Below are positions 4,449 to 34,491 of a stretch of DNA of 38,213 nt, piece after piece; the stretch's first letter is position 1, and every line of letters starts with the position of its first letter. The position numbers were made by a program, and so were the translations under genes. The notes beneath the pieces were generated by a model that had not been told where the DNA came from, did no database searches, and saw only the letters and a program-made list of their open reading frames with translations. The DNA is from an uncultured Solobacterium sp. (GTDB lineage: Bacteria > Bacillota_I > Bacilli_A > Erysipelotrichales > Erysipelotrichaceae), in contig URYK01000026.1 of NCBI GenBank assembly GCA_900552125.1, positions 1 through 38,213 of the forward strand, in the 5' to 3' direction.

Positions 4449-6029
4449 TTATTCCGTTATATTCGGATGTATCTGTTTTTTAAATTCACTAGGAGATATA
4501 TTATAGTATTTCTTGAACACTTTATTAAAATATAATTGATCTTCTATTCCTACTGCCAATGCTACATCTTTGATCATACTATCTTGATTGCTTAGTAATT
4601 CCATTGCTTTTTTCATTTTACGTTCATTCACATAATAATTTACATTTACTCCTGTTTCACTTTTAAACATACGACTTAATGTACTTTCATTCATATGTAA
4701 GTGATCTGCTATCATTTTTAGCGTTAGTTTTCGATGAATATTAGATTCGATATATTCTATCGCATCCAATATTTCTTTACGATAAAGCTGAGAAGAACTA
4801 TCCTGTAACCAGGTTTCGATAGTTTGAAAAGAACCTTTTACTATTTCTTCTAATTTATCACTCGTCTCACACAATGGAATCTGTGCTGTAATAGAATCAA
4901 ATGGAAAAGCATGACGAAGTCCTTTTGCCATTACATTTCCTTCAATGTTGTGAAAAATAAACATAAAGTATTCTTTTACAGATTGAGGCGATATTTCCTT
5001 TTCCTGCATAAAATACATGATATCTTCTAAAATACTATAAACCTTTGTGAAATTCTTCATCTGCATTGCATCTAATATCTGAAGATGAAAATCTACTTTA
5101 TTCATATCTAATTCATTAAAATTCTCATTTTCCTCAACCTGAATAAGAGAACCTTCTCCTAGATAGAATCGTCTTGCATGTGCCTTCAATAATAACTTAA
5201 ATTGTTCGTAAAAATTATCAGTTGACGGAATTATATCAGATAATGATATTGACATATGGATATCAAGATATTGTGCAATATTACGAATAATACTATGACA
5301 AATATTTAAAACACGAAGTTTCTCTTTACTTTCAAACATTATGATACCAGAGTGATTACTGATAAAAATCAAATGATATCCCATCATAATAGGAATAGAT
5401 TCTTTAATTAAATCTTTTAAATTATGATGCAGACCTTCATGATCTTTAACTTTTGTTTGATATAAATAATTTATGTTATCTACACGAAAATAGCCCATTT
5501 GAAATCCTTGTGAATACTTATCAAACATTGGTAAAGATAATATTTCCTGCAGCTTTTCTTCCTTAACCATATGCTTATTTTTTATTAACACAATACATTC
5601 TCTTAGTTTATTTATTGCGGCTTCATATTCATCATGGTCATTCTTACTACTTTCTACACATGACTCTTTTACCTGTTCAATTATTCTTTGTAACTCACTT
5701 TTTTCTAGTGTTACCTTTAATAAATAATCGAATGCCCCAGCTTTCATCGCATCTCTAACATATTCAAAATCTGAATAATTGCTTAAAGCAATGACTTGTG
5801 TATTTTTATTACGTTCTTTTATTTTCTTTATTAACTCAATACCATCCATACCTGGCATCTTTAAATCAGTAATTACGATTTCCGGATGTAGTTCATCAAA
5901 TACGCGCAGTGCTTCTTCTCCGTCTTTCACAGTAGCAATTACTTCACAATCTAATGCCTTCCAATCCAGCATATTTTTTAATGTAATTCGAATCAAACGT
6001 TCATCATCTACAATAAGCACCTTATACAT
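4449..6029 (-). CDS. YesN-type response regulator with AraC DNA-binding domain
   Basis: Receiver domain at the N-terminus (VLIVDDERLIRITLKNML acidic pocket, phosphoacceptor Asp in IVITDLKMPGMDG at residue 55 from this start, conserved Lys in DYLLK at 105), a long middle region of about 300 residues, and a C-terminal AraC/XylS double helix-turn-helix (about 425-520, with YFNKVFKKYYNISPSEFK). It should receive phosphate from the kinase encoded just upstream and act as a DNA-binding activator. The open frame reaches 6038 and overlaps the kinase stop as ATGA, but GAGGG then touches that ATG; the ATG at 6029 has the box at proper spacing and starts right before KVLIVDDE, so I prefer it. YesM/YesN systems usually control sugar ABC transporters, and none is in this window. 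Confidence 0.9.
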   Translation of the reverse strand: MYKVLIVDDERLIRITLKNMLDWKALDCEVIATVKDGEEALRVFDELHPEIVITDLKMPGMDGIELIKKIKERNKNTQVIALSNYSDFEYVRDAMKAGAFDYLLKVTLEKSELQRIIEQVKESCVESSKNDHDEYEAAINKLRECIVLIKNKHMVKEEKLQEILSLPMFDKYSQGFQMGYFRVDNINYLYQTKVKDHEGLHHNLKDLIKESIPIMMGYHLIFISNHSGIIMFESKEKLRVLNICHSIIRNIAQYLDIHMSISLSDIIPSTDNFYEQFKLLLKAHARRFYLGEGSLIQVEENENFNELDMNKVDFHLQILDAMQMKNFTKVYSILEDIMYFMQEKEISPQSVKEYFMFIFHNIEGNVMAKGLRHAFPFDSITAQIPLCETSDKLEEIVKGSFQTIETWLQDSSSQLYRKEILDAIEYIESNIHRKLTLKMIADHLHMNESTLSRMFKSETGVNVNYYVNERKMKKAMELLSNQDSMIKDVALAVGIEDQLYFNKVFKKYYNISPSEFKKQIHPNITE

Positions 6030-6034
6030 ACAAG

Positions 6035-7708
6035 TCATCCCTCACTTTTTTTATATGGAAGTAAAAGCGTCACGATTGTCCCTTTACCTATAACACTTTT
6101 TATATCCATAGAATATTTTTCTCCATACATTAAATGAATACGTTCCTGAACATTTTTAACTCCAATACCGCTTAACTTCTTATATCGTGTTTCTGTTTGC
6201 GTAATTTTAAATCCTTTACCATTATCACCTATTTCAATTTTTAAAAACTCTCCTTCTTTTTTAACTCGTATTGTTAGTATTTGGTGTTCTTTATCTTCTT
6301 CAAATGCATGGAGAATACTATTTTCCACTATTGGCTGTAGTAAAAACTTCAGTATAACACAATCCAATACATCATTATCTATATTATATACTGTTTCGAA
6401 AACATCTCCATAACGAAGTTTCTGAATAATGATATAATTTTTTACATTCTCTATTTCATCTTGGACGCTAACCATTTCTTTACTATCCAAAATTGTATTA
6501 CGCAATAACTTAGCTAATGCGCTAATTCCTTCACTTACAGGCTTATCTTCATTTAAGATTGCCAGATATTTTAACGTATTTAAGGTATTGAATAAGAAAT
6601 GTGGATTAATTTGCGCCTGCAATAGCTGAAATTGACTTTCCCTTTTCATTTCCTGTTCTTTCTCTATTGTCTCTAATAGTTCTTGAACACGATTCAAAAG
6701 ATCATTAAAGTTAACATTTAATTCATGAATTTCATCCTTACCATTATCCTCTATTTGACTTAAAGCAAGGTTGCTTTCATCAATATTTCGCATAGATTGT
6801 AATAACTTATTAATTGGATCTATCATACTTCGATAAATAAAATAGGCTATAATTGCGACCACCAGCAAAAATACCATACCATATATCAAGAGCATATCAC
6901 GATAACTATATATTTCAGCTAACACTGCACTCTCTTTACTTAAATATACTACGTACCATGAAGTATCCTTATTCTCTTTTTTTGTTAAGTAATACGAAAT
7001 CTGGTCTATTTCAACGATTGATGCTGATAAATCAATAGGTTTCTGAATAGATGATTCTAGACTTCCAAACAAACAATTTCCTTTTTCATCTGTTACGACA
7101 AGCAGACTATCATCTTCCATTCGCAGGATAGACGAATTAAATATTTCTTTTTCATAGCTTGTTAATAAATAACCAATCGGCTGATTATATAAATCATAAA
7201 TCCCTATGATCTGTATGATGGAATCATTTGTTTCATCATATCTCCATAGACCATTTTCTCCTTGTTTTAGAATTTCATCTTTTAAAGAAGATATCTCTAA
7301 TGAATTAATATTCCCTTCTTTATATAACTGGTTTTCATTTGCATCTAATAATCGTAACCCTGTATATTCTTCAAGAATATTATGTTCATGCAATCCCTGA
7401 ACAAACTGTAAATATATACTTTCATCCGTAGGGTAATATAAAAAATTTCTTACATACGGTGCACCGATTAATTTATACATCTGTTTATTTAAATGATCAA
7501 TGTGGACCTGAAATAACTCCTCAGACATCGAAACTACTCGATTGGCATTTGTCTCATGTTTCTCTAAAAGTATTTCTCTATTAGATGAATAATAATAAGA
7601 AAACCAGATAAACATTAAAAAAATCGGCACAAGGATAAAGCCTAGAAACAATCGCATTTTTATATTCGTTTTGCGAATTAATCCTTTAAATTTATTAAAC
7701 ATATTCAT
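6035..7708 (-). CDS. YesM-type sensor histidine kinase
   Basis: Membrane sensor of 557 residues. Helix 1 lies at about 19-39, followed by an extracytoplasmic sensing region of about 230 residues, helix 2 at about 272-292, a HAMP-like linker (IDPINKLLQSMRNID), then the His_kinase (PF06580) segment with phospho-acceptor His in QINPHFLFNTLN and a GHKL ATPase domain (N box near IVENSILHAF, G boxes GDNGKGF and GIGVKNVQERI). It should autophosphorylate on an extracellular signal and pass phosphate to the regulator encoded next. Its ATG immediately follows the ywzB stop, with GGAG nine bases before it, so it is probably cotranscribed with ywzB. The sensed ligand cannot be told from sequence. Confidence 0.92.
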   Translation of the reverse strand: MNMFNKFKGLIRKTNIKMRLFLGFILVPIFLMFIWFSYYYSSNREILLEKHETNANRVVSMSEELFQVHIDHLNKQMYKLIGAPYVRNFLYYPTDESIYLQFVQGLHEHNILEEYTGLRLLDANENQLYKEGNINSLEISSLKDEILKQGENGLWRYDETNDSIIQIIGIYDLYNQPIGYLLTSYEKEIFNSSILRMEDDSLLVVTDEKGNCLFGSLESSIQKPIDLSASIVEIDQISYYLTKKENKDTSWYVVYLSKESAVLAEIYSYRDMLLIYGMVFLLVVAIIAYFIYRSMIDPINKLLQSMRNIDESNLALSQIEDNGKDEIHELNVNFNDLLNRVQELLETIEKEQEMKRESQFQLLQAQINPHFLFNTLNTLKYLAILNEDKPVSEGISALAKLLRNTILDSKEMVSVQDEIENVKNYIIIQKLRYGDVFETVYNIDNDVLDCVILKFLLQPIVENSILHAFEEDKEHQILTIRVKKEGEFLKIEIGDNGKGFKITQTETRYKKLSGIGVKNVQERIHLMYGEKYSMDIKSVIGKGTIVTLLLPYKKSEG

Positions 7709-24097: not shown

Positions 24098-25274
24098 ATT
24101 CCATTCCTCCAACATAGCCTGTTTTATTAATCAATTCAATACCTTGTGCTGATTGAATCCAATCTAAGAAAGGCTGTAGGTTTTTATTATCATTTCCTTT
24201 TACATAGATAGCGTAAAATGGATTAGTGATAGGATATGTTTTATTTAATATATTTTCTACATTTGGTTCTATTCCATCTATTTTTAATAAGCGTATGCCA
24301 TTATTCTTAACCATACTTTGTGTATAATAACGGAAAGAATATCCTATTGCATTTTCTCTATTCTCATACTCTGCTGTCTGAGTTATGATTCCACCCATAC
24401 CACTGACAACATCTTTTTTTATTGGTTCCATGATTTTCTTATCACCCATAAAACGAATTAAAGCAGATTGAGAGCCACTTCCTTCTGGCCGTTGAAATGC
24501 ACGTATAGATTGATCATTTCCACCAACTTCTTTCCAATTTGTGATTTTACCACTATAAATATCTTGTATCTGTTCTGTAGTTAAATCAGTGATTGGATTT
24601 TCATAATTTACGAAGAATACAAAAGATTCTAAGCCAATTGGAACCATAACTAATTCCTTGTTTTGTGCTTCAAACATTTCTTTTTGTTGTTGAGAAGGTG
24701 CAGCCACAAAGATTAAATCTGTTTCTTCATTCAATAATCGTTCATAGGCATATGGTGTTGTCGAACACTCTACAACAGGATTTTCATCATAAAGAGAATA
24801 TTCATCTTCAGGATATACCGCTTGCACGAAAGATGCATATATCGGATATAAAGCAGTTGCGCCATCTAAGCGTAATAAATCCTCAGTCATTTTATAACTG
24901 CTTGTTTCGTCTAATGTTGCTAGTTTTTCACTATTAAATGGTTTATATTCCATCAAATCAACTTCTGTTTCCATCACATCAAAACGATTGATCCATGCCT
25001 GATAACCATAGCTTCCCGCGACAGTAACAACACAAGCTAGGAAAGGAATAATAATAAATAGTTGTGTTCTCTTTTTTAAAAATCTTTTATTACGAATACA
25101 GCTTACTAAAGTAGACCAAATATAGATATAGACAAGAAGAAAGGAAATTAATGTTAAATATGATACATGTGGAAAGATTGAGTTATGAGATAAGACTAAC
25201 GTAAAAATTAAACTAAAGGGTATAAAGAATAAAGAAATTAATGCGATAAGTACAACATAAGGCGTATATTTCAT
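24096..25274 (-). CDS. Membrane-anchored PstS-like phosphate-binding protein
   Basis: 392 residues in two parts. The first 95 contain three hydrophobic helices (about 5-30, 38-60, 72-90) joined by a basic loop. The rest is a periplasmic-binding-protein fold of the PstS type, with LDGATALYPIYASF near residue 134, LIFVAAPSQQQ, the DIYSGKITNWKEVGG signature, and RPEGSGSQSAL, which forms the anion-binding loop in PstS. Ordinary PstS is a lipoprotein with one signal peptide; here a three-helix membrane domain replaces it. No pstC/A/B gene is near. Its ATG overlaps the Nudix stop (ATGA), with GGAGG inside the Nudix gene, so the two are translationally coupled. Confidence 0.82.
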   Translation of the reverse strand: MKYTPYVVLIALISLFFIPFSLIFTLVLSHNSIFPHVSYLTLISFLLVYIYIWSTLVSCIRNKRFLKKRTQLFIIIPFLACVVTVAGSYGYQAWINRFDVMETEVDLMEYKPFNSEKLATLDETSSYKMTEDLLRLDGATALYPIYASFVQAVYPEDEYSLYDENPVVECSTTPYAYERLLNEETDLIFVAAPSQQQKEMFEAQNKELVMVPIGLESFVFFVNYENPITDLTTEQIQDIYSGKITNWKEVGGNDQSIRAFQRPEGSGSQSALIRFMGDKKIMEPIKKDVVSGMGGIITQTAEYENRENAIGYSFRYYTQSMVKNNGIRLLKIDGIEPNVENILNKTYPITNPFYAIYVKGNDNKNLQPFLDWIQSAQGIELINKTGYVGGME

Positions 25275-25660
25275 ATAGATTCCTCCCGCAATTTAGCTAA
25301 AATAGGTTTATCTGCTTTTTCAAAATTATAGTTAGATACATCATTTACATTAATCCACGCATATTCATGATGTGCATGTAATTGTATTTCTCCACTAAGA
25401 TAGGAACAAATATATGCATGGACATGTAAAATACAATCTTCTCTTTCATCGACAATACTAGTTAAATAGCGTTTTACTGAAACATCAATTTCTAGTTCTT
25501 CCTTTATTTCTCTAACAACCGCTTCTTCTTTAGTTTCATTTACTTCTACTTTACCGCCAGGAAATTCCCAGATATTTTCATGTATTCCTTTTCCTCTTTT
25601 CGCAACTAATACCTTATGATCTCTACAAATAATTCCACATACAATATCTAGTTTTTTCAT
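25271..25660 (-). CDS. Nudix hydrolase, MutT type
   Basis: 129 residues with a complete Nudix box GGKVEVNETKEEAVVREIKEEL (written here as two parts: GGKVEVNETKEEA and VVREIKEEL, about residues 35-56) and the N-terminal VCGIICRDHKVLVAKRGKG typical of 8-oxo-dGTP diphosphatases. It probably cleans oxidised nucleotides. ATG 25660 has GAGGGAAA before it and overlaps the preceding stop as ATGA; the apparent earlier start at 25675 is a TTG inside the upstream gene without its own site. Middle gene of a three-gene coupled unit. Confidence 0.9.
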   Translation of the reverse strand: MKKLDIVCGIICRDHKVLVAKRGKGIHENIWEFPGGKVEVNETKEEAVVREIKEELEIDVSVKRYLTSIVDEREDCILHVHAYICSYLSGEIQLHAHHEYAWINVNDVSNYNFEKADKPILAKLREESI

Positions 25661-26412
25661 TTTCCCTCGCTCCAATCAATAAAGTTTTCTGGATCCGTAT
25701 CTTCTTTCTGTAAGATTTCATCCAAATAAAAATTATCCTCTATTCTTAATAATTTCCAATATTCCACAAAAGAAGTTTGTTTTTTTGTACCATCTGTTAC
25801 TTCTTGAGTTTCCATATTCAATGTATAATCTTTCATACTCCCCTCAATATATACCCAGCAGCAGTCTTTATTATTATCTTGATAATCCTGAACACCAACA
25901 ATAGAGCTTCTTAATAATTTAATGTTTTCTAAAACGTTTCTTTCGTTACGCATTTCTTGCCAAACTAGTTTTGTTTTCCATTGTTCATACAAATGTGGAG
26001 TTAAATATGGTTTTAATGCTTCTGTATCATTATATGTCCATGCCTCTTGTACATGAAAATAAATATCTTCAGCTCTTTTAAGAATATCTTCCTCTTTCCA
26101 AAGAGTATCAGTAGTTTGAATAGTTTCAAGTACTTCTTTGGTTTGTTTAGATTTTTTTCTTACTCTATTTCGATAAACAATCATTGGTATAGATGGTATT
26201 AAAATGATGACCCCAACAACACCTACTGTAGATATTAGACTTCCTAGAGGATCCTGATTATGATTGTCGTTATAATGATGATGTCTCGAACTACTAGAAG
26301 ATCCGCCTCCACTACTACCGCTACCTGAGCTGCCGCCGCCAGCTCTTGCGAAGATGGGTGCTGGTGTTAATAATATCATTAATAAAATTAAAATCCATAC
26401 TTTCTTTTTCAT
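25657..26412 (-). CDS. Secreted/membrane Tim44-like domain protein
   Basis: 251 residues: signal peptide (about 1-22), a low-complexity Gly/Ser stretch, a His/Asn-rich patch (about 44-54), one transmembrane helix (about 62-80), a basic stretch, and a C-terminal Tim44-like domain (about 105-245) containing AEDIYFHVQEAWTYNDTEAL and YLTPHLYEQW. The topology suggests the Gly/Ser part outside and the Tim44-like domain inside the cell. Bacterial Tim44-like proteins are membrane-linked with unsettled roles. It is the first gene of the coupled unit with the Nudix and PstS-like genes. Promoter-like TATAAT elements lie in the 73-base divergent gap to the DUF6483-like gene. Confidence 0.8.
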   Translation of the reverse strand: MKKKVWILILLMILLTPAPIFARAGGGSSGSGSSGGGSSSSSRHHHYNDNHNQDPLGSLISTVGVVGVIILIPSIPMIVYRNRVRKKSKQTKEVLETIQTTDTLWKEEDILKRAEDIYFHVQEAWTYNDTEALKPYLTPHLYEQWKTKLVWQEMRNERNVLENIKLLRSSIVGVQDYQDNNKDCCWVYIEGSMKDYTLNMETQEVTDGTKKQTSFVEYWKLLRIEDNFYLDEILQKEDTDPENFIDWSEGK

Positions 26413-26485
26413 AATCCCTATCCCTCCTTTATATTTTTATTATACAATAAAGATATAATAAAGATAAAGAAAGAGAGGGACTCTT

Positions 26486-26851
26486 ATGAGTATCTTTGAA
26501 AATGATTGGATTATGAGACAAATCGAAAGTATGACAGACATGCTTGGTAAAGTTTTACTTCATAAGGATAAAACTAAAATTATTGAAGAAGATGAATTTG
26601 GAGATGATAAAGTAAGAAACTATTATCATAAAAGTCAGGAATTAATAAAACAAAAGAAATACAAGGAGGCAATTACCTATATTAAGGAGAACTTTTCTAC
26701 AGGCAATATGGATTATTTAAAAGCAGTTTTATCTTGTTTTGATCAATTAAATGTTCTTACAGAAAAGGAATTAGAAGAAGGAAATTATTCTCGTCAAGAA
26801 TTATATAATGACTTAGAATTTATTACAGAACAATACGGTATTCATCTATAA
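26486..26851 (+). CDS. DUF6483-like small helical protein
   Basis: A 121-residue soluble protein opening with NDWIMRQIESMTDMLGKVLL, then an acidic segment and a helical-repeat-like part (YYHKSQELIKQKKYKEAITY resembles one TPR unit). The opening resembles the DUF6483 family of Firmicutes, of unknown function. GAGAGGGACTCTT precedes ATG, and a plus-strand TATAAT lies at about 26454. Single gene with its own terminator. Name tentative; reality of the gene is not in doubt. Confidence 0.7.
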   Translation: MSIFENDWIMRQIESMTDMLGKVLLHKDKTKIIEEDEFGDDKVRNYYHKSQELIKQKKYKEAITYIKENFSTGNMDYLKAVLSCFDQLNVLTEKELEEGNYSRQELYNDLEFITEQYGIHL

Positions 26852-26908: not shown

Positions 26909-28510
26909 TTACCAAGATGCAATAGCACTATCTGTTCTAGATTCAGAGCCACCCATCAGCGTTCCATTTTCCATTCTTAAGATAATCTGTCCTCTGCCAA
27001 AAGATGCAAGTTCCATATTTACCTGTATCAGATGTCCTCTTTCCTGTAATCTTCTAACTATATTCGTATCAAAACTATGTTCTACATGAAACTCTTTATC
27101 TTTGATCCATTGCCATCTAGGTGCATCTAATGCTTGTTGGGGGTTTAAATGAAAATCAATCATATTCATGACAACCTGTACATGACCTTGAGGCTGCATA
27201 TAACCACCCATAACTCCAAAAGGTCCAATTGCTTTTCCGTTTTTTGTAAGAAAACCTGGAATTATAGTATGATAAGTTTTCTTTCCTGGAGCTAATGAAT
27301 TAACATGATCAGGATGTAAAGAGAAATCATGTCCTCTATTTTGAAGAGAAATACCTGTATCTTTCACAACTACACCGCTGCCAAATCCCATATAGTTACT
27401 TTGAATGAATGAAACCATATTACCTTCCTGATCAGCAGTACATAAATATACTGTTCCACTCTTATATGGATTTAGGACTTCTGGTAATTTTGCATTTTCT
27501 GTAATTTCTTGAGCACGTAGTTTGCCATAGTTAGGATCTAATAATGTCTTTATATCTGTTTTCATAAATCTAGGATCTGTAATATGATGCATTCCATCCG
27601 CAAATGCCATTTTCATTGCCTCAAACTGATGATGAAACATTTCTTCATTACGCTCTGTAAATTGAAATTCTTTTAATATATTTAAAGCCATCAATGCGAC
27701 AATTCCCTGCCCATTTGGTGGAAGCTCCCAAACATCATAGCCATGATAATGAACAGACACAGGTTTTACCCATTCTACTTTATGATTTTCTAAATCACTT
27801 TTTCTTATATAACCTCCATGAGCTATGCTGTCTTTCTCGATTTGTTCAGCCAGTACACCACCATACAGTGCCTGCCCCTTTGTTTCTGCGATTTTTTCTA
27901 ATGTATCTGCATGATTTTTTAACTTTATAATCTGACCTGGTTCTGGAGCTTTTCCATCGACAGTAAAAGTATTAAACCATTCCGCAAAGACAGGGTCATC
28001 TATTTTATCCTGATAATTACGCAAGGCATTCTTCCACATTCGAGATGTTTCAGGTGTCACAGGATAACCATTTCGAGCATAAGAAATTGCTGGAGCTAAC
28101 ACTTGTTTAAGCGGTAATTTTCCAAATCTTTCACTTAGTTCTACCCAGGCTTTAGGTGCTCCAGGTACTGTTACCGGAGTCCATCCATGTTTCGGCATTT
28201 CTGTAATTCCTTTTTCTTTCAACTTTTCAATTGATATTCCCATTGGTGCTTTTCCTGAACTATTTAATCCATACATCTCATCTTTATACCACACAATTGC
28301 GAAAGCATCAGAACCAATTCCATTTGCGGTTGGCTCTACTACTGTTAAGGTTGCGGCAGTTGCGATAGCCGCATCAATAGCATTACCTCCTTCTTTAAGT
28401 ATTTGTAGACCAGCAGATGATGCTAGATTATTTCCTGTACATACCATTCCATTCCTAGCTAAAATTGGATATCTGCTAGCTGTATATGGTTTATTGTATA
28501 ACTCAAACAT
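26909..28510 (-). CDS. ggt: Gamma-glutamyltransferase family protein
   Basis: 533 residues with the Ntn-hydrolase architecture. The large-subunit part has NGMVCTGNNLASSAGLQIL, GGNAIDAAIATAATLTVVEP and NGIGSDAFAIV; the small-subunit start is probably SGTVYLCTADQEGNMVSFIQ, where the Thr would be the nucleophile exposed by self-cleavage; then GVMGGYMQPQGHVQV matches the conserved GG pair. No signal peptide is visible, so it would act in the cytoplasm, unlike classical secreted GGT. Many such paralogues are acylases or process other gamma-glutamyl compounds. ATG 28510 has GGGGAG at good spacing; the GTG at 28516 lies too close. Single gene, divergent from the chromate transporter pair. Confidence 0.88.
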   Translation of the reverse strand: MFELYNKPYTASRYPILARNGMVCTGNNLASSAGLQILKEGGNAIDAAIATAATLTVVEPTANGIGSDAFAIVWYKDEMYGLNSSGKAPMGISIEKLKEKGITEMPKHGWTPVTVPGAPKAWVELSERFGKLPLKQVLAPAISYARNGYPVTPETSRMWKNALRNYQDKIDDPVFAEWFNTFTVDGKAPEPGQIIKLKNHADTLEKIAETKGQALYGGVLAEQIEKDSIAHGGYIRKSDLENHKVEWVKPVSVHYHGYDVWELPPNGQGIVALMALNILKEFQFTERNEEMFHHQFEAMKMAFADGMHHITDPRFMKTDIKTLLDPNYGKLRAQEITENAKLPEVLNPYKSGTVYLCTADQEGNMVSFIQSNYMGFGSGVVVKDTGISLQNRGHDFSLHPDHVNSLAPGKKTYHTIIPGFLTKNGKAIGPFGVMGGYMQPQGHVQVVMNMIDFHLNPQQALDAPRWQWIKDKEFHVEHSFDTNIVRRLQERGHLIQVNMELASFGRGQIILRMENGTLMGGSESRTDSAIASW

Positions 28511-28581
28511 AAACACTCCCCTTTTCTTTTTTCTTTAAAATATCACATTCATAATTTAAGTCAAGTTAGATTTAAAAATTC

Positions 28582-28609
28582 TTGTAAATATAAAAATATT
28601 TAATATAAT
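28582..28609 (+). promoter_or_regulatory. Sigma-A promoter of the chromate transporter pair
   Basis: TTGTAA (28582-28587), 16-base spacer, TATAAT (28604-28609). Transcription would start near 28616, after the ATG at 28614, which rules that ATG out as a start. Confidence 0.65.
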
Positions 28610-28640
28610 AGGAATGTTTGAAAAGGAAATGAGGGATCTT

Positions 28641-29189
28641 ATGAAAATATATTGGGAATTAATCTGTGCTTTTATGCGTATCGGTGCATTTACTTTTGGT
28701 GGAGGATATGCCATGTTGCCATTGATTCAAAAAGAAATCGTAGATAAAAAACGTTGGGCAACAGAAGAGGAAATTATGGATTATTATGCGGTAAGCCAGT
28801 GTACTCCAGGAATCATTATGGTAAATACTGCTACATTTATTGGTTATTATTTAAAAGGTATACCTGGCGCAATTGTCGCAACATTAAGTGTTGTGACTCC
28901 TAGTATTATTATAATTACTTTAATTGCGTCAATCCTAACAACTTATTCATCACTAGCCATCGTTCAACATGCTCTTGCTGGTATTCGAGTAGCAGTTTGT
29001 GTTCTTGTGTTAAATGCTGTTATTAAATTATGGAAAAATGGAATAAAGGATGCTTATGGTATTATCGTATTTGCATTTGTTCTTGCGGCAGTAAGTTTTA
29101 CTAGTATATCAACTGTAATTATTGTCATCTTATCTGCTGTTGCAGGACTGATCTATACTACGCTAAAACAAAGGGGGCAGGTAAAATGA
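28641..29189 (+). CDS. Chromate transporter, N-terminal-type half (short CHR)
   Basis: 182 residues from this start, with about five to six helices. CHR signatures are AFMRIGAFTFGGGYAMLPLI near the N-terminus and YAVSQCTPGIIMVNTATFIG. Short CHR proteins work as pairs of unlike halves with opposite topology, and the partner is the next gene (overlap ATGA). Substrate may be chromate or another anion. I prefer ATG 28641, with AGGG five to six bases upstream, over 28614, which lies before the predicted transcription start. Confidence 0.9.
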   Translation: MKIYWELICAFMRIGAFTFGGGYAMLPLIQKEIVDKKRWATEEEIMDYYAVSQCTPGIIMVNTATFIGYYLKGIPGAIVATLSVVTPSIIIITLIASILTTYSSLAIVQHALAGIRVAVCVLVLNAVIKLWKNGIKDAYGIIVFAFVLAAVSFTSISTVIIVILSAVAGLIYTTLKQRGQVK

Positions 29190-29743
29190 GTTTAAAGATA
29201 TTGTTAATTGCTTTCTTTGAATTCTTCAAAACAGGCTTATTTGCGATTGGCGGAGGTCTAGCGACGATTCCATTCTTAACAGAAATGATGAATACTTATC
29301 ATTGGTTTACTCCAGATATGCTAGCAGATATGATTGCGGTTAGTGAATCAACCCCTGGAGCCATTGGGATTAATATGGCAACATACACAGGTTATCAAAT
29401 TGCCGGAGTTATTGGTGGAATTGTTACTACTATAGGATTGATCACTCCTAGTATTATTGTTATTTGTATCGTTGCGAAGTTTTTAAAGAAATTTAAAGAT
29501 AGTAAAATAGTTTCTTCTATATTTTATGGAATTCGCCCAGCTGTTACTGCATTAATTGCATCTGCAGGTATCACTATTTTTATTGCTGCATTATTTCAAG
29601 ATGGAAATAATGTAATGGAAATGATTAAATGGGAATGTATTGTTTTATTTGTAGTAATATTCTATGTATCAAATAAAAAAAGCTGGCACCCTATCGTATG
29701 TATAGTGTTATCAGCTATTATTGGTATTGTATTTCAATTATAA
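29186..29743 (+). CDS. Chromate transporter, partner half (short CHR)
   Basis: 185 residues, paralogous to the preceding gene: FFEFFKTGLFAIGGGLATIP corresponds to the GAFTFGGGYAMLP motif of the first, and AVSESTPGAIGINMATYTGY to its SQCTPG motif. It is followed by four more hydrophobic helices. The start overlaps the previous stop, with AAAGGGGGCAGG upstream. Together the pair forms one heterodimeric transporter. A terminator follows within two bases of the stop. Confidence 0.9.
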   Translation: MSLKILLIAFFEFFKTGLFAIGGGLATIPFLTEMMNTYHWFTPDMLADMIAVSESTPGAIGINMATYTGYQIAGVIGGIVTTIGLITPSIIVICIVAKFLKKFKDSKIVSSIFYGIRPAVTALIASAGITIFIAALFQDGNNVMEMIKWECIVLFVVIFYVSNKKSWHPIVCIVLSAIIGIVFQL

Positions 29744-29744
29744 T

Positions 29745-29770
29745 GATGTCTCTTATGGCATCTTTTTTAT
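29745..29770 (+). terminator. Terminator after the chromate transporter pair
   Basis: GATGTC / GGCATC stem (one G-U) with loop TCTTAT, then TTTTTTATTT. Confidence 0.7.
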
Positions 29771-29775
29771 TTGCT

Positions 29776-29852
29776 TCGCGCGGTCGCGCGATAAAGTCGC
29801 GCGCGCGCGAAATATTTTTTAATTTAATAACGCGCGCGTTATGCTGCGCGCG
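29776..29852. repeat. Cluster of four alternating CG tracts (left flank)
   Basis: In order: TCGCGCG-GT-CGCGCGA (29776-29791, inverted repeat), TCGCGCGCGCGCGA (29797-29810, 14-base palindrome), AACGCGCGCGTT (29829-29840, palindrome), GCGCGCG (29846-29852). Between them is AT-rich sequence. Each can fold on itself or pair with another. They fill the 118-base gap at the 3' end of the AlbA_2 gene. Similar tracts lie beyond its 5' end (31603-31647) and nowhere else in the window. Confidence 0.85.
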
Positions 29853-29861
29853 ACATACCTT

Positions 29862-31511
29862 TTATTTTATCTTATACCTTGTTTGATTTCCTTTTCCTAT
29901 TAAAGTTAGCTTATTTTCTTTAACTAATTTCTTTAACAGACGATATGATTGATCTTTAGATATTTTCAACAATTCAGATACTTCTCTTCTTTTAATTCCA
30001 TCATTGCTTTTCTTAGCAAATTTTAGCACTAATTCTTCATATCTTAATTCATCTATATCTGTTTGTCTTATATAGCCTATCATATTATCTCCTGCATTAT
30101 ATACTTTAGCACTTAATATATAAGTTCTATTTTTTCCTTTACCTGTTGCTTCTATTAGACCAGATTCTACTAATTTTCCAATTGTAGCAATTGCTTTCGA
30201 TTCACTAATATGAGTAGTTTCCATAATCCTTTTCAAATTTACTCTTCTTTCATACTTTAAACAAGATAAAATTAACAAGGAATTAATACTCAAAGCTCTT
30301 TGATTTCGTTCTTGTTCCTCATTAAGCATCTTCATAAAATGAAAATCAGGTTTCGCTCTTTGAATAAATAACTTAACCATTGTTTTTGTACTTTCTGAAT
30401 AATCAGGCCATGGTCTTCCAAACAAAATTGATCCTTCAAAAATTCTATCAATTCCCCTTCCTGTTTTTTCAGCCAAACCTATTCTTTTTAAAGCATCGGC
30501 CAAGTTTTTATTTCTTCCATGAGGTTCTACTGTCAACAAATTATCTAATGTGACTCCTTCAATAAACCCCCCAGGATTACTAATGATTAAACCTTCATCA
30601 TCAATAGCTACACGAACTGTTCCTAACATCGTATAATCCCGATGCGAAAATGCATTAATTAAAGCTTCTCGAAATGCTTTTTTTGAAAATTCCGGAACGC
30701 TAATTCTAAGAAGTCCATCATCTACTTCATGTTCTGGATTCCAAGCATTAAAGTTATTTTCAATTATTTCTAAAGTTGCTAAAATTGATTTTCCATATTC
30801 TTCATTTTTCCGTACAACTGTACCCTCTAATACTTGAAAAGAAGATCTTGCTGTAGGTATATATTTTGCTATTTTTTCTTCTTTTCCAATTAGTAACATC
30901 CCTGTTATAGTTGGGATTAATATACCATTATCCTCTTTAACCAGTCCTAATGCCTTTTCTAATTCTTCATTATCTAAATCAAGCAAATAATTATCTCCAT
31001 TACTTTTTTTAATCATATTTCTTAATCTAATAATTTCATGTTCATCAAAATCATTAGTAGTAGCATTATGTATCATTTGTGCTGAAAAATCTAATAAACT
31101 CAAATCAGATAAACGTGTTGTAATTTCAAAAGGATACATTGGAACATTTTCAGGTTCTCCATTACTTTTTAATCTTCTTCTTAGCATTTTTCCTTGTAAG
31201 GTTGCAACAACTGTTTTACTTTTAGGAATTGTTATTTTCATTATATTCTTATCTTCTTCATAAAGTATTTCAGCTTCAATAAAAATAGTAGGTACTATAT
31301 TATTCATTACCATAGCACATAAACCTATTTCATCTTCATGTTTTTTTGCCAATCCTGTAATTTTTCCATTATCCTCTACACCTAAATATAAAACCCCTCC
31401 ATCAGTATTTGCCATAGCAACAATAGCTTCAACTAGATCTCTATCTGGATATACTTTCTGATCGCTTTTAAATTCTACTAATAAAGATTCTTTATTTGGT
31501 ATTGTTCTCAT
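29862..31511 (-). CDS. AlbA_2 (Schlafen-like) / ATPase / winged-helix protein
   Basis: 549 residues. An AlbA_2 domain occupies about residues 5-135 (LLVEFKSD, LVEAIVAMANTDGGVLYLGV with the usual Glu and GG turn). A GHKL-like ATPase region follows at about 280-395 (FREALINAFSHRDY, IISNPGGF, GRNKNLADALKRIGLAEKTG). The C-terminus holds two winged-helix segments (about 410-470 and 495-549). This is the widespread 'ATP-binding, AlbA_2 domain transcriptional regulator' architecture; related Schlafen-like proteins occur in defence islands, but the molecular role is unproven. Start: GAGGGG eight bases before ATG. It is a lone gene, inserted between unrelated units and bracketed by CG tracts, which suggests acquisition as a cassette. 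No transposase or clean target duplication is visible. Confidence 0.88.
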   Translation of the reverse strand: MRTIPNKESLLVEFKSDQKVYPDRDLVEAIVAMANTDGGVLYLGVEDNGKITGLAKKHEDEIGLCAMVMNNIVPTIFIEAEILYEEDKNIMKITIPKSKTVVATLQGKMLRRRLKSNGEPENVPMYPFEITTRLSDLSLLDFSAQMIHNATTNDFDEHEIIRLRNMIKKSNGDNYLLDLDNEELEKALGLVKEDNGILIPTITGMLLIGKEEKIAKYIPTARSSFQVLEGTVVRKNEEYGKSILATLEIIENNFNAWNPEHEVDDGLLRISVPEFSKKAFREALINAFSHRDYTMLGTVRVAIDDEGLIISNPGGFIEGVTLDNLLTVEPHGRNKNLADALKRIGLAEKTGRGIDRIFEGSILFGRPWPDYSESTKTMVKLFIQRAKPDFHFMKMLNEEQERNQRALSINSLLILSCLKYERRVNLKRIMETTHISESKAIATIGKLVESGLIEATGKGKNRTYILSAKVYNAGDNMIGYIRQTDIDELRYEELVLKFAKKSNDGIKRREVSELLKISKDQSYRLLKKLVKENKLTLIGKGNQTRYKIK

Positions 31512-31544
31512 ATTATCAACCCCTCACACTTTTTCATTGTTATC

Positions 31545-31589
31545 TGTATATTGACTTTTCATCAAGTATCAATAATAAACAATGATACT
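31545..31589 (-). promoter_or_regulatory. Promoter with inverted repeat before the AlbA_2 gene
   Basis: Minus-strand TTGATA (31567-31572), 16-base spacer, TATACA (31545-31550). A perfect AGTATC / GATACT repeat (31565-31570 and 31584-31589) covers the -35 element, a plausible operator for this winged-helix protein itself. Inference only. Confidence 0.45.
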
Positions 31590-31602
31590 CTTTTGCTTAT
31601 TA

Positions 31603-31647
31603 TCGCGCGCGCGCATTAATAAGTCAAGTTTTATCGCGCGTTGCGAT
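31603..31647. repeat. Two alternating CG tracts (right flank)
   Basis: TCGCGCGCGCGC (31603-31614) and ATCGC-GCGTT-GCGAT (31633-31647, a 5-pair hairpin). Both are followed by ATTAAT. They lie upstream of the AlbA_2 promoter and mirror the left cluster at 29776-29852. Confidence 0.85.
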
Positions 31648-31687
31648 TAATGTAATATAATAAAGACATCAACCGTAATCAATGCCT

Positions 31688-33031
31688 TTATGCAAACTCA
31701 AATTTTCTCATTTTAATTAAATAAATAGAAACTAAGGTAACACCCTTTAATATAGAACTAATGGTAATTGCCCACCATATACCATTCAATCCTAATATAT
31801 TACTCAACACTATTGCCATCGGTATTCTAGCTGCTGTTAATGTAATACTTACAATCGAAGGCGGCAATGTTTTACCTAATCCATTAAATGCACCAGCTGC
31901 AGAATATTCAATACACATAAACATTTGCGACACTCCTAGTATTCTTAGATAATCTACACCTAATGGTAGAACATCTGGTTCTCGTATAAATATCTCAAAG
32001 ATAAACTCTGGAAATACAATTAATACAAAAGAACAGAATAATCCCCAGACAATCATCGCAATTAAAGAAATACGATAGCCTTCCATGATTCTCTTTTTGT
32101 TTTTTGCGCCATAATTCTGAGCTACAAAACTATTCAATGCGGCCGCATAGCCTTCTGCTGTCATCCATGAAATTGATTCAATTTGAGAACCTACTTTCTG
32201 AACTGCAACAGCTGCATCTCCCCAACCTGCAATCAATCTAGCAATTACCATAGAGATACTTGAAAACAACATACTTTGTAAAGCACTTGGCAATCCTATT
32301 CTAAAAATCTCTTTCATATGCTTCATGTGTGGTTTACTTAAAATATGAATATTACAAAATAAAACTGTATCATTCTTTATTGAATACATAAACAGCAACA
32401 TAACAATAGCCTGTGCTAATACTGTCGCAATCGCAGCACCTGCTACACCATATGCTGGTACAAACCCAAATCCAAAAATAAACAATGGATCTAATACAAT
32501 ATTAATAATTAATCCGACACCGTTAGCAATTAATGATGTACGACTATTTCCCATTGCGGTTAATGTACCGGTAAAAATCTGATTCATAAAAGAAAAAATA
32601 ACTAAACCACAAGTAATTATTAAATAAATCTTTGCATCTTCAATTACTTGTGGACTATTTAATTGGAAAAAGGCAATCATTTGATTCGCAAATAAGACAG
32701 AAAGTAATCCAAATGCTAAAGCAAATACGATTCCCATCTGAAAAGAACTTTGTGCATATGCAGCTGCTTCATCACTTTCTCTAGCTCCTAATGCATGTCC
32801 TACTTTTATCTGTCCACCCATTTTTGCTAATGTAACTAGTCCATTTGATAGCCACATAAACATCCCTGCTGCACCTACAGATGCCACAGCAGCCGAACCA
32901 ATCCTTCCAATCCAAATCATATCAATTAAGTTATAAGCCATTTGAATTAAGCTTGTTAACATAATTGGCAAAGCTAATGAACACAATGCAGGTAAGATTT
33001 TACCTTCTAGTAAATTTATATTCTTATTCAC
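31688..33031 (-). CDS. MATE-family efflux transporter
   Basis: 447 residues, twelve hydrophobic helices in two similar halves. The first opens LALPIMLTSLIQMAYNLIDMIWIGRIGSAA (seen at about 15-45, the usual MATE entry helix pair), and the second has GLPSALQSMLFSSISMVIARLIAGWG. These are cation-coupled exporters of drugs and metabolites; the cargo is not predictable. The start is GTG 33031 with AGGAAGTGAGAAC before it. A weak hairpin follows its stop (31662-31689) without a good T run. It follows luxS in the same direction with 54 bases between, separated by a probable terminator. Confidence 0.92.
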   Translation of the reverse strand: MNKNINLLEGKILPALCSLALPIMLTSLIQMAYNLIDMIWIGRIGSAAVASVGAAGMFMWLSNGLVTLAKMGGQIKVGHALGARESDEAAAYAQSSFQMGIVFALAFGLLSVLFANQMIAFFQLNSPQVIEDAKIYLIITCGLVIFSFMNQIFTGTLTAMGNSRTSLIANGVGLIINIVLDPLFIFGFGFVPAYGVAGAAIATVLAQAIVMLLFMYSIKNDTVLFCNIHILSKPHMKHMKEIFRIGLPSALQSMLFSSISMVIARLIAGWGDAAVAVQKVGSQIESISWMTAEGYAAALNSFVAQNYGAKNKKRIMEGYRISLIAMIVWGLFCSFVLIVFPEFIFEIFIREPDVLPLGVDYLRILGVSQMFMCIEYSAAGAFNGLGKTLPPSIVSITLTAARIPMAIVLSNILGLNGIWWAITISSILKGVTLVSIYLIKMRKFEFA

Positions 33032-33049
33032 GTTCTCACTTCCTTTTAA

Positions 33050-33076
33050 AAGAAAGTTTCAGACCTAAGCCTGAAA
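33050..33076 (-). terminator. Probable terminator after luxS
   Basis: Minus-strand TTTCAG / CTGAAA stem with an 8-base loop followed by CTTTCTTTT. The T run is broken, so some readthrough to the MATE gene is likely. Confidence 0.5.
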
Positions 33077-33085
33077 TACTCTTAA

Positions 33086-33550
33086 TTATTGTGGATAAAC
33101 TAACTGTTCTTCTGTCCAGTTTTGAATTACTTTTCCATATTCCTTTGCATAATTCTTTGCTTTATCTAAATCGTGATCTAAATAATTACCACATTCTTTA
33201 GACTCTTGTGCACCTGGAATATCTCCTTCAAAATTAGCAATAAATTCCATAGTATCTTGTACAAGCTGAATAGCTTCTTTTTTAGAAATTGAGTCTCTTG
33301 TTAGAAAGTAAAAGCCTGTACGACATCCCATAGGACCTGCATAAATAATCGCATCGCTATATTTCGTATTTCTAACATAAGTAGCAAATAAATGTTCAAA
33401 AGTATGTAAACCGTCATTATCTAAATATACACCAGCATTAGGTTTTACCATTCTTAAATCATAAGTAATGATATCACCATCAATTCTAGAAACATACATG
33501 CCTGGATTTAAAATATCGTGATCAATACAAAAACTTGTTATTTTGTCCAT
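33086..33550 (-). CDS. luxS: S-ribosylhomocysteine lyase
   Basis: 154 residues. LuxS splits S-ribosylhomocysteine to homocysteine and DPD, the precursor of the AI-2 signal, within the activated methyl cycle. Metal ligands are present in HTFEHLFATY (two His) and ECGNYLDHD (Cys), and the catalytic Cys region reads GPMGCRTGFY. The length is normal. ATG 33550 has GAGGTG eight bases upstream; the TTG at 33565 overlaps that box. A good promoter lies at 33568-33597. No pfs/mtnN or cysteine gene is adjacent. Confidence 0.96.
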   Translation of the reverse strand: MDKITSFCIDHDILNPGMYVSRIDGDIITYDLRMVKPNAGVYLDNDGLHTFEHLFATYVRNTKYSDAIIYAGPMGCRTGFYFLTRDSISKKEAIQLVQDTMEFIANFEGDIPGAQESKECGNYLDHDLDKAKNYAKEYGKVIQNWTEEQLVYPQ

Positions 33551-33648: not shown

Positions 33649-34491
33649 ATGAGAAATGAAGAAGAAATGTTCCAATTAATTATTAATACCGCAAAAAAAG
33701 ATGATCGAATTCGTGCTGCATATTTAGAAGGCTCTCGTGCAAATCCAGAAGTCAAAAAAGATAGATTTCAGGATTATGATATTGTGTATATTGTAGAAGA
33801 AACTACATCATTTATAAAAGATATTTCTTGGATTGATATCTTTGGAGAACGTCTATTTATGCAATATCCTGATGAATTCTCAGATTCTACTACGGATAAA
33901 TCTCAATGTTATGGCTGGCTTATTCAATTTACGGATGGCAATCGATTAGATTTACATGTATGCACCTTAGACTATGCTCTTAAACATTTAGAGATATACC
34001 AAGTTTTATTAGATAAAGATAATATTTTACCTTCTCCTCCACATAATATGCAAAGTATATATTGGGTAAAGAAACCTTCAGAAAAAGAATTTCTTGAAAC
34101 ATGTAATGAGTTCTGGTGGTGTTTAAATAATATTGGTAAAGGAATAAAAAGAGATGAAATACCTTATGTATTAGAAATATTAGATTCCATACTTCGTCCT
34201 ATGTATAAAAAAATGCTTATATGGTATATCGGTATTCATAATGATTTTCATGTTAATGCTGGTAAGGGTGGAAAGTATTTAAAACAATACCTTCCTGAAA
34301 AGATGTATAATCAATTTATGTCTAGTTATTATTTTCATGATACAGATTCTTTATGGCAATTATTCTTTAACCTATGTATCAATTTTGACCATCTTGCGAA
34401 ATCTATAGCTGATGATTTATCTTTCTCTTATAATCAAGAGGAAGCAGATAATAGTTTTCAATTCTTTAAGGAAATACATGATCTAACCTAA
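33649..34491 (+). CDS. Aminoglycoside 6-adenylyltransferase family protein
   Basis: 280 residues. The nucleotidyltransferase signature is intact: YLEGSRANPEVKKDRFQDYD gives the GSRAN helix turn and the metal-binding D-x-D (QDYDIVYIV). RLDLHV supplies the third Asp. The rest is the helical ANT(6)/AadE/AadK C-terminal domain (EFWWCLNNIGKGIKRDE, KGGKYLKQYLP). Members adenylate streptomycin at position 6. Chromosomal AadK-like copies like this one are often intrinsic and weakly active, so resistance is possible but not assured. AGGGAGTACTATCAA precedes ATG. No mobile element is near, and base use is like its neighbours. Confidence 0.88.
   Translation: MRNEEEMFQLIINTAKKDDRIRAAYLEGSRANPEVKKDRFQDYDIVYIVEETTSFIKDISWIDIFGERLFMQYPDEFSDSTTDKSQCYGWLIQFTDGNRLDLHVCTLDYALKHLEIYQVLLDKDNILPSPPHNMQSIYWVKKPSEKEFLETCNEFWWCLNNIGKGIKRDEIPYVLEILDSILRPMYKKMLIWYIGIHNDFHVNAGKGGKYLKQYLPEKMYNQFMSSYYFHDTDSLWQLFFNLCINFDHLAKSIADDLSFSYNQEEADNSFQFFKEIHDLT

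Follow-up and report, generated by a model that had tools for sequence, protein, structure and literature searches.

Why should alternating CG tracts surround a single gene in otherwise AT-rich DNA? The window analyzed here (the whole stretch of 38,213 bases, with a GC content of 31.5%) contains seven alternating C/G runs of ≥6 bases, at 29777-29782, 29785-29790, 29798-29809, 29831-29838, 29846-29852, 31604-31614, and 31635-31640, all of which flank one gene within 1.9 kb. The original prediction had counted six blocks, the first two runs, which form one hairpin, having been taken as one. Its claim that the tracts are confined to the flanks of this gene was confirmed: there is no run of ≥6 bases elsewhere in the window, where the longest alternating C/G run is 5 bases (at 5903). 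The downstream tracts include perfect palindromes of 16 and 14 bases, and the upstream tract contains one of 10 bases. To assess chance, we simulated 200 sequences under each of three Markov orders (1, 2, and 3), with training on sequence outside the locus; the simulated sequences contained means of 0.73, 0.90, and 0.105 runs of ≥6 bases, respectively, with a maximum of 4 runs per sequence and a longest run of 9 bases, compared with the 7 runs and the longest run of 12 bases observed. An Rfam search of positions 28000-33500 gave no match. As judged from sequence comparison, the most likely explanation is that the locus contains an autoregulated, portable Schlafen-type gene for which the CG tracts serve as operators.

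A Schlafen-type gene with a predicted RNase domain

The gene (29862-31511, minus strand) encodes a protein of 549 amino acids that, as described earlier, combines AlbA_2, ATPase, and winged-helix regions. AlbA_2 spans residues 8-116 and HATPase_c_4/GHKL residues 299-377, followed by winged helix 1 at about residues 409-466 and winged helix 2 at about residues 487-546, the latter with recognition residue R524. The match to SLFN_AlbA_2 (PF04326) scored 63.3 bits (curated cut-off, 25.3), and the order of the Pfam matches, PF04326, PF13749, PF13412, is that of a Schlafen domain followed by a minimal histidine kinase and a C-terminal winged helix-turn-helix (wHTH). These matches suggest a bacterial protein related to the antiviral Schlafens, with AlbA_2 as its predicted RNase head, followed by a central GHKL ATPase and a pair of winged helices.

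The catalytic E, E, and K of RNase-active Schlafens are present as E8, E13, and K15, which are unchanged in 22/22 aligned proteins. By motif spacing, they would correspond to E209, E214, and K216 of SLFN11, which are required for RNase activity according to the excerpted text of PMC9482658, where the D252A variant is described as not inactive. The window protein resembles human SLFN11 and the mouse/rat-type SLFN8/SLFN13 core in having an AlbA_2 domain with an E-x4-E-F-K motif, but unlike SLFN11 it has a GHKL ATPase and wHTHs in place of the helicase part, and its RNase activity is predicted. A profile of 22 relatives matched the Schlafen cores of SLFN8 and SLFN11 with its N terminus; it also aligned with the uncharacterized protein PDB 3lmm at positions 222-547 (E value, 4.9e-26), the N-terminal part aligning weakly. 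PADLOC matches of the 549-amino-acid protein were weak and partial.

The layout of Schlafen domain, GHKL ATPase, and winged helix has been reported beside anti-phage BREX systems, and the available excerpts describe such proteins as RNase effectors. Their linkage to BREX or other defense loci is common but not obligatory. A 2025 preprint by Taboada et al. reportedly covers the anti-phage activity of these effectors. As far as the excerpts describe them, they have the same order of Schlafen head, GHKL-type ATPase, and C-terminal wHTH as the window protein; the window gene differs in its two wHTH regions, in the lack of BREX neighbors in what was seen, and in its own predicted operators, a feature that the excerpts leave unmentioned. 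It is flanked by a chromate-transporter pair (plus strand, ending at 29743) and a MATE transporter (minus strand), and a Pfam scan of nine window proteins revealed neither BREX nor another defense locus. Likewise, no recognizable BREX protein was seen in our own reading of 20 neighbors of 11 homologous loci. At homologous loci (given here as L numbers), a type III restriction/SNF2 helicase adjoins the gene in L006, an AAA-PDDEXK protein in L005, and a UvrD-like helicase in L002, and a relaxase lies near L220. A streptomycin adenylyltransferase-type gene (PF04439) is located in the window at 33649-34491, close to the luxS and MATE genes.

CG tracts in and upstream of the predicted promoter

Upstream of the gene, on the minus strand, lies a sigma-70-type promoter match, TTGACT-17-GATAAT (31599-31627), which agrees with the consensus at 10/12 positions and contains a CG tract in its spacer. 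It is the best of 12 promoter-like sites in the region, but shuffles of the region averaged 13.6 such sites, so the promoter match alone proves little. The tract in the −35/−10 spacer (predicted operator O1, 31604-31614, centered at about 31608.5) has its counterpart in relatives that carry a motif of their own in the equivalent spacer. About 31 bp upstream of O1 is an imperfect CG palindrome, ATCGCGCGTTGCGAT (predicted operator O2, 31633-31647, centered at 31640). The window gene has one mark of an autoregulated repressor, a palindrome overlapping its own predicted promoter. In autorepressed toxin-antitoxin modules and wHTH regulators of defense islands, operators overlap the regulator's own promoter, with paired sites about three turns apart. 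The arrangement predicted at the window gene appears similar, but here effector and repressor would be one polypeptide, and there are extra predicted operators behind the gene.

A non-CG inverted repeat, AGTATCA-N11-TGATACT, was observed at 31565-31589, in the stretch that separates the predicted start of transcription from the gene. It is possibly a second operator or a second promoter control and, as a point against the CG tracts, could itself be the real operator.

Homologs 48 to 60% identical to the window protein were obtained from Clostridia records and the genomes sampled around them; sampling of the phylum for close kin gave a best listed FTHFS match of 64% among 199 genomes. Of the protein matches listed (120 of 5,373), two named ones stand close to the top, P0021 (67%, Erysipelotrichaceae) and P0022 (76% over 83%, Thomasclavelia), so that the AT-rich host is probably outside the groups sampled here. 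A CG run like those of the window was present at the promoter in 0/22 relatives compared, the protein of the nearest relative being 60% identical, but 17/22 relatives have a promoter match in which the spacer carries its own palindrome or half-palindrome (ACGCACGCGTGTGT, TTGCACATTTGTGC, CGAAATTTTCG, and others). Among these promoters are TTGACA-TAAACGCACGCGTGTGT-TAAAAT (L170), TTGACG-TCAACACACGCGTGCGT-TAAAAT (L174), TTGACA-AAACGCACGCGTGCGTT-TATAAT (L189), TTGACT-TTAAGACACGCGTGTGT-TAGAAT (L179), TTGACA-TTATTGCACATTTGTGC-TATACT (L006), and TTGACA-ATTCGAAATTTTCGCGT-TAGAAT (L164); no promoter match was found in L178, L185, and L190.

Strict scoring covered 17 spacers, those of the window and 16 relatives, with one match chosen at loci with two promoter matches, and left out L004 (a near-duplicate of L003), L178, L185, and L190 (without a match), and L180 and L186 (match unused). 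At least 5/6 complementary pairs were found in 11/17 spacers, compared with 7.7% of 5,000 random 17-mers from the window. Single spacers were mostly not significant (P < 0.05 in 3/17), and the combined P value of 3e-5 ignores relatedness. Operator pairs are 30 to 32 bp apart in L170, L174, L187, and L189, which is similar to the 31 bp between the downstream palindromes D2 and D3 of the window (see below); distances determined by hand were 33 to 34 bp in L001 and L165 and 40 bp in L173. No clear operator was visible by eye in L009, L010, L176, and L177 (38 to 41% identity). Viral contigs yielded no close relative of the protein, only three of 39 to 44% identity, and the phage and plasmid homologs are remote (21.8 to 28.0% identity among the best 30 of 97 and 15 of 26 records). 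Scans of viral contigs for CG motifs gave at least 144 loci, 8 of which have a GC content of <40% and carry 1 or 2 CG runs each.

A recognition-helix residue tracks the class of predicted operator

Operator specificity was found to track the recognition helix, related sequences included: 11/11 Arg524-type proteins have CGCG, CGCACG, or ACGTGCG within 150 bases upstream, compared with 1/11 proteins with Asn, Ser, Thr, or Tyr at position 524 (L164, Tyr), for which we counted a CGCG-type upstream motif. The window itself combines Arg524 with predicted CG operators. The remaining residues pair with other motifs, Asn524 with TTGCACATGTGCAA (L001 and L003 to L006) or AATTCAATT (L180), Ser/Thr524 with AACTCGA (L178, L185, and L186), and Tyr524 with AACGCAGA (L002) or CAACTC (L164). 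The Fisher P value of 3e-5 for this association includes relatives and near-duplicates as separate sequences, and we formulated the CGCG-type rule after inspecting the operators. The residue count comprises 22 loci and the listing of operator classes 24; both sets left out L009, L010, L166, L176, L177, L190, and genes that were partial or more distant. When winged helix 2 was excluded from the FastTree alignment, the non-Arg proteins appeared in four separate parts of the tree, which makes it unlikely that the link between residue and operator is one inherited event. This suggests that a single recognition-helix residue tracks operator class, in what may be a small DNA-recognition code.

Predicted autoregulation by the second winged helix

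We consider it likely that the CG palindromes are operators for the second winged helix of the Schlafen-type protein, which would in this way control its own production. That the tracts might be binding sites for the protein itself had been one of the suggestions of the original prediction, and it gains support, as a prediction, from the position at the promoter, the palindromes of the relatives, the near-exclusive location in several genomes, and the covariation with residue 524. An oligomer would occupy both O1, within the promoter spacer, and O2, some three helical turns further upstream, thereby blocking RNA polymerase and limiting the amount of the protein itself. If the ATPase part sensed a phage-related signal, repression might be relieved and RNA cleavage switched on. 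At the downstream copies, the same oligomer could hold the gene at both ends by a loop or bridge, or read-through could be stopped there.

Bacterial Schlafens are, in the excerpted text of PMC12839542, widespread candidate anti-phage RNases. No account of how cells keep Schlafen RNases quiet was found in the open-licence PMC literature searched, and operators of bacterial Schlafen genes are undescribed in the titles and abstracts among the open-licence PMC matches listed. Private predicted operators are one possible answer to how a cell keeps such an RNase quiet, and the operator pattern suggests a way to find Schlafen-type genes from noncoding DNA.

The CG cluster behind the gene

Since the chromate-transporter pair is encoded on the plus strand and the Schlafen-type gene on the minus strand, the two genes converge on the downstream CG cluster, a place that needs no promoter. 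It comprises four predicted operators: D1, a CG run (29846-29852); D2, the perfect 16-base CG palindrome (29827-29842, centered at 29834.5); D3, the perfect 14-base CG palindrome (29797-29810, centered at 29803.5, 31 bp from D2); and D4, the CG hairpin TCGCGCG-GT-CGCGCGA (29776-29791, centered at 29783.5).

Operators behind the gene might be a clue to the way in which infection is sensed by the enzyme. One doubtful possibility is that the protein guards its own locus, a silent RNase being held between operators before and behind the gene, with the operator set as the sensor. Phage attack would break, copy, or reshape the local chromosome and thereby open the bridge, and the freed protein would switch on its own gene and cleave RNA. 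Such guarding would explain why operators lie behind the gene between convergent genes, and also the downstream repeat clusters of distant relatives described below.

D3 scores as terminator-like on the plus strand, with a T-rich tail, and RNA folding of the downstream block is strong on both strands (z, −2.9 and −3.4). Both observations favor a reading of the tracts as terminators of transcription, or as RNA hairpins that insulate a gene standing alone. As an explanation of the tracts, this is nevertheless unlikely: the upstream tract lies within the promoter spacer, and the class of motif tracks the recognition helix. Furthermore, the chromate-transporter pair already has a terminator-like hairpin with a T-rich tail behind it (29745-29772, plus strand), the CG cluster lying further on, and a terminator scan on the strand of the Schlafen-type gene found none.

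Bracketing of the gene by predicted operators was scored as a motif common to both flanks at 30/40 loci, 20 of them close members; the scoring left out L001, L002, L005, L010, L013, L016, L195, L197, L198 (gene unrecognized), and L175 (without downstream DNA). The shared motif was significant in L165 (P = 0.010), L169 (P = 0.005), and L172 (P = 0.005) and not significant in L164 (P = 0.055) or in the window (P = 0.10, from shuffles that preserve CG content). With 3/20 close members significant, bracketing failed as a rule for the family and is a minority trait in relatives. By eye, TAACGCACGAACGCGCGTTA is present behind the stop codon of L179, and no operator motif common to both flanks was seen in L001, L002, and L005. 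The high shared-flank score of L182 was due to a repeat other than an operator.

Repeat density was significant upstream in 20/27 family members, compared with 3/26 other window genes, and downstream in 14/27 family members, compared with 2/26 other window genes. This set consists of 27 hand-picked loci, the start codons of L183 and others being uncertain; it was compiled without L004 and L168 (near-duplicates), L173 (short 3′ flank), L009, L010, L013, L016, L175 to L177, L190 to L198, and others. The downstream test was not passed by L165, L169, and L172, and some of the downstream repeats (L001, L002, and L167) are probably terminators. In the distant relatives L182, L184, L167, L012, and L017 (28 to 33% identity), downstream repeats were significant and upstream repeats were not. 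Clusters of repeats or palindromes (e.g., copies of AATCGAGTGCACTCGATT and TTTCAATGCGTTT) were observed directly behind the stop codon in L182, L183, L184, L167, L012, L017, and L014, and they were significant in all seven but L014 (P = 0.068).

Promoter and gene seem to form a portable block in relatives

In L001 and L003 to L006, a homologous block starts 7 to 15 bp upstream of the −35 box; its other end varies from 58 bases short of the stop codon to about 250 bases past it. The flanks of this block are unrelated in 9/10 pairs of these five loci, the exception being L003/L004, whose flanks are common; the common upstream boundary of that pair is no insertion edge, because 7.6 kb upstream is common to both. 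The clearest case of portability is L006 compared with L003 and L004, with 96 to 97% identity within the block. Promoter, operators, and gene thus seem, in these alignments, to move together, which fits a defense gene in turnover and part of the original idea of a mobile cassette.

Direct repeats with 85 to 99% identity were observed on both sides of the gene in L001 (1869-1956 and 3807-3893) and in L003 (4148-4665 and 7858-8364; 5510-5630 and 8391-8511). They may stem from insertion with duplication or from the assembly of related copies.

In its full form, the cassette idea takes the CG tracts as the ends of a single-gene mobile cassette, either terminal repeats or target sites. It gains partial support from the promoter-gene block between unrelated flanks in relatives, to which the direct repeats on both sides in L001 and L003 may be added; this shared block is without defined ends. 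The tracts, however, look unlike terminal repeats. The motifs lie within the promoter and not at block ends only, their copy number is unequal between the two sides, most relatives are without downstream copies, and the protein has no transposase or integrase domain. Moreover, unrelated flanks are to be expected anyway between distant species. We therefore regard it as improbable that the CG tracts are cassette ends.

Z-DNA and CG-specific enzymes

The alternating sequence had also raised the question of Z-DNA. The tracts might be Z-DNA switches, read in left-handed form by a winged helix or acting through promoter supercoiling, and indeed purines alternate with pyrimidines over the full length of (CG)n and of ACGCACGCGTGCGT. 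The winged helix is, in addition, the fold of the Z-DNA-binding domain. However, sister proteins have non-alternating palindromes in the same places (AACGCAGA, AACTCGA, and CAACTC...GAGTTG), so that Z-DNA, although possible for CG, is not needed. The Z-DNA contact residues of the Z-DNA-binding domain are presumably unmatched in this protein, which is a further point against such switches, and we rate them as very unlikely. Targets of a CG-specific methylase or nuclease, also suggested in view of CG-rich sites concentrated at one locus, are hardly credible, because no such enzyme was found among the nine window proteins scanned or in our own reading of the other window translations, and relatives have unrelated motifs in place of the CG motif.

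Operator motifs in the genomes of relatives

The predicted operator motifs seem to be private to their own gene in several genomes (given here as G numbers). The motif CRCACGYGTGYG was searched in six genomes (G844, G502, G570, G870, G812, and G579). In G844 it occurs at two places only, 24804 and 26549, bracketing the gene at 24883-26526, and in G502 likewise at two places only, 95108 and 96835, bracketing the gene at 95137-96765. It was found at two places in G570, both at the promoter, and at three in G870, two of them at the promoter; the strict pattern occurred at 0 places in G812 and in G579. Five genomes contain one copy each of TTGCACATGTGCAA, and in all five it lies at the promoter. 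With a looser pattern, searched in seven genomes, the places located at the gene were 2/2 in G1369, 2/3 in G1259, 1/1 in G978, 2/3 in G579, 0/6 in G812, and 0/8 in G1425; G1208 contained none at all.

When 200 genomes from a single family were searched starting from the motif, it was found at 14 places, spread over 13 genomes, compared with 41 genomes (by our own count) for a reversed control pattern. According to tblastn, 3 of these 14 loci belong to the family (two flank the gene in G844, and one adjoins a gene remnant in G1022), one is part of an operator-like cluster that lacks a family gene (G1042), and 10/14 places have no family gene within 1.5 kb. The strict motif is missing from 8/9 sampled genomes with a homolog and therefore marks just part of the family.

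The G1042 and G1022 loci have the following features. In L223 (G1042:C33:170000-182689), repeats that resemble operators, namely TTTTAACGCGCGCGTGCGTTAAAA and AACGCAC-like copies, are clustered in an intergenic region at about 7500-7600, and the surrounding 12.7 kb contain no family gene; a relic, orphan operators, or another regulated gene are possibilities. In L224 (G1022:C55:20000-35000), a family gene that has undergone internal deletion, with an upstream operator, is located at about 6977-7410, and this remnant keeps the start of the gene (by our own reading) and the C-terminal 107 residues (by tblastn).
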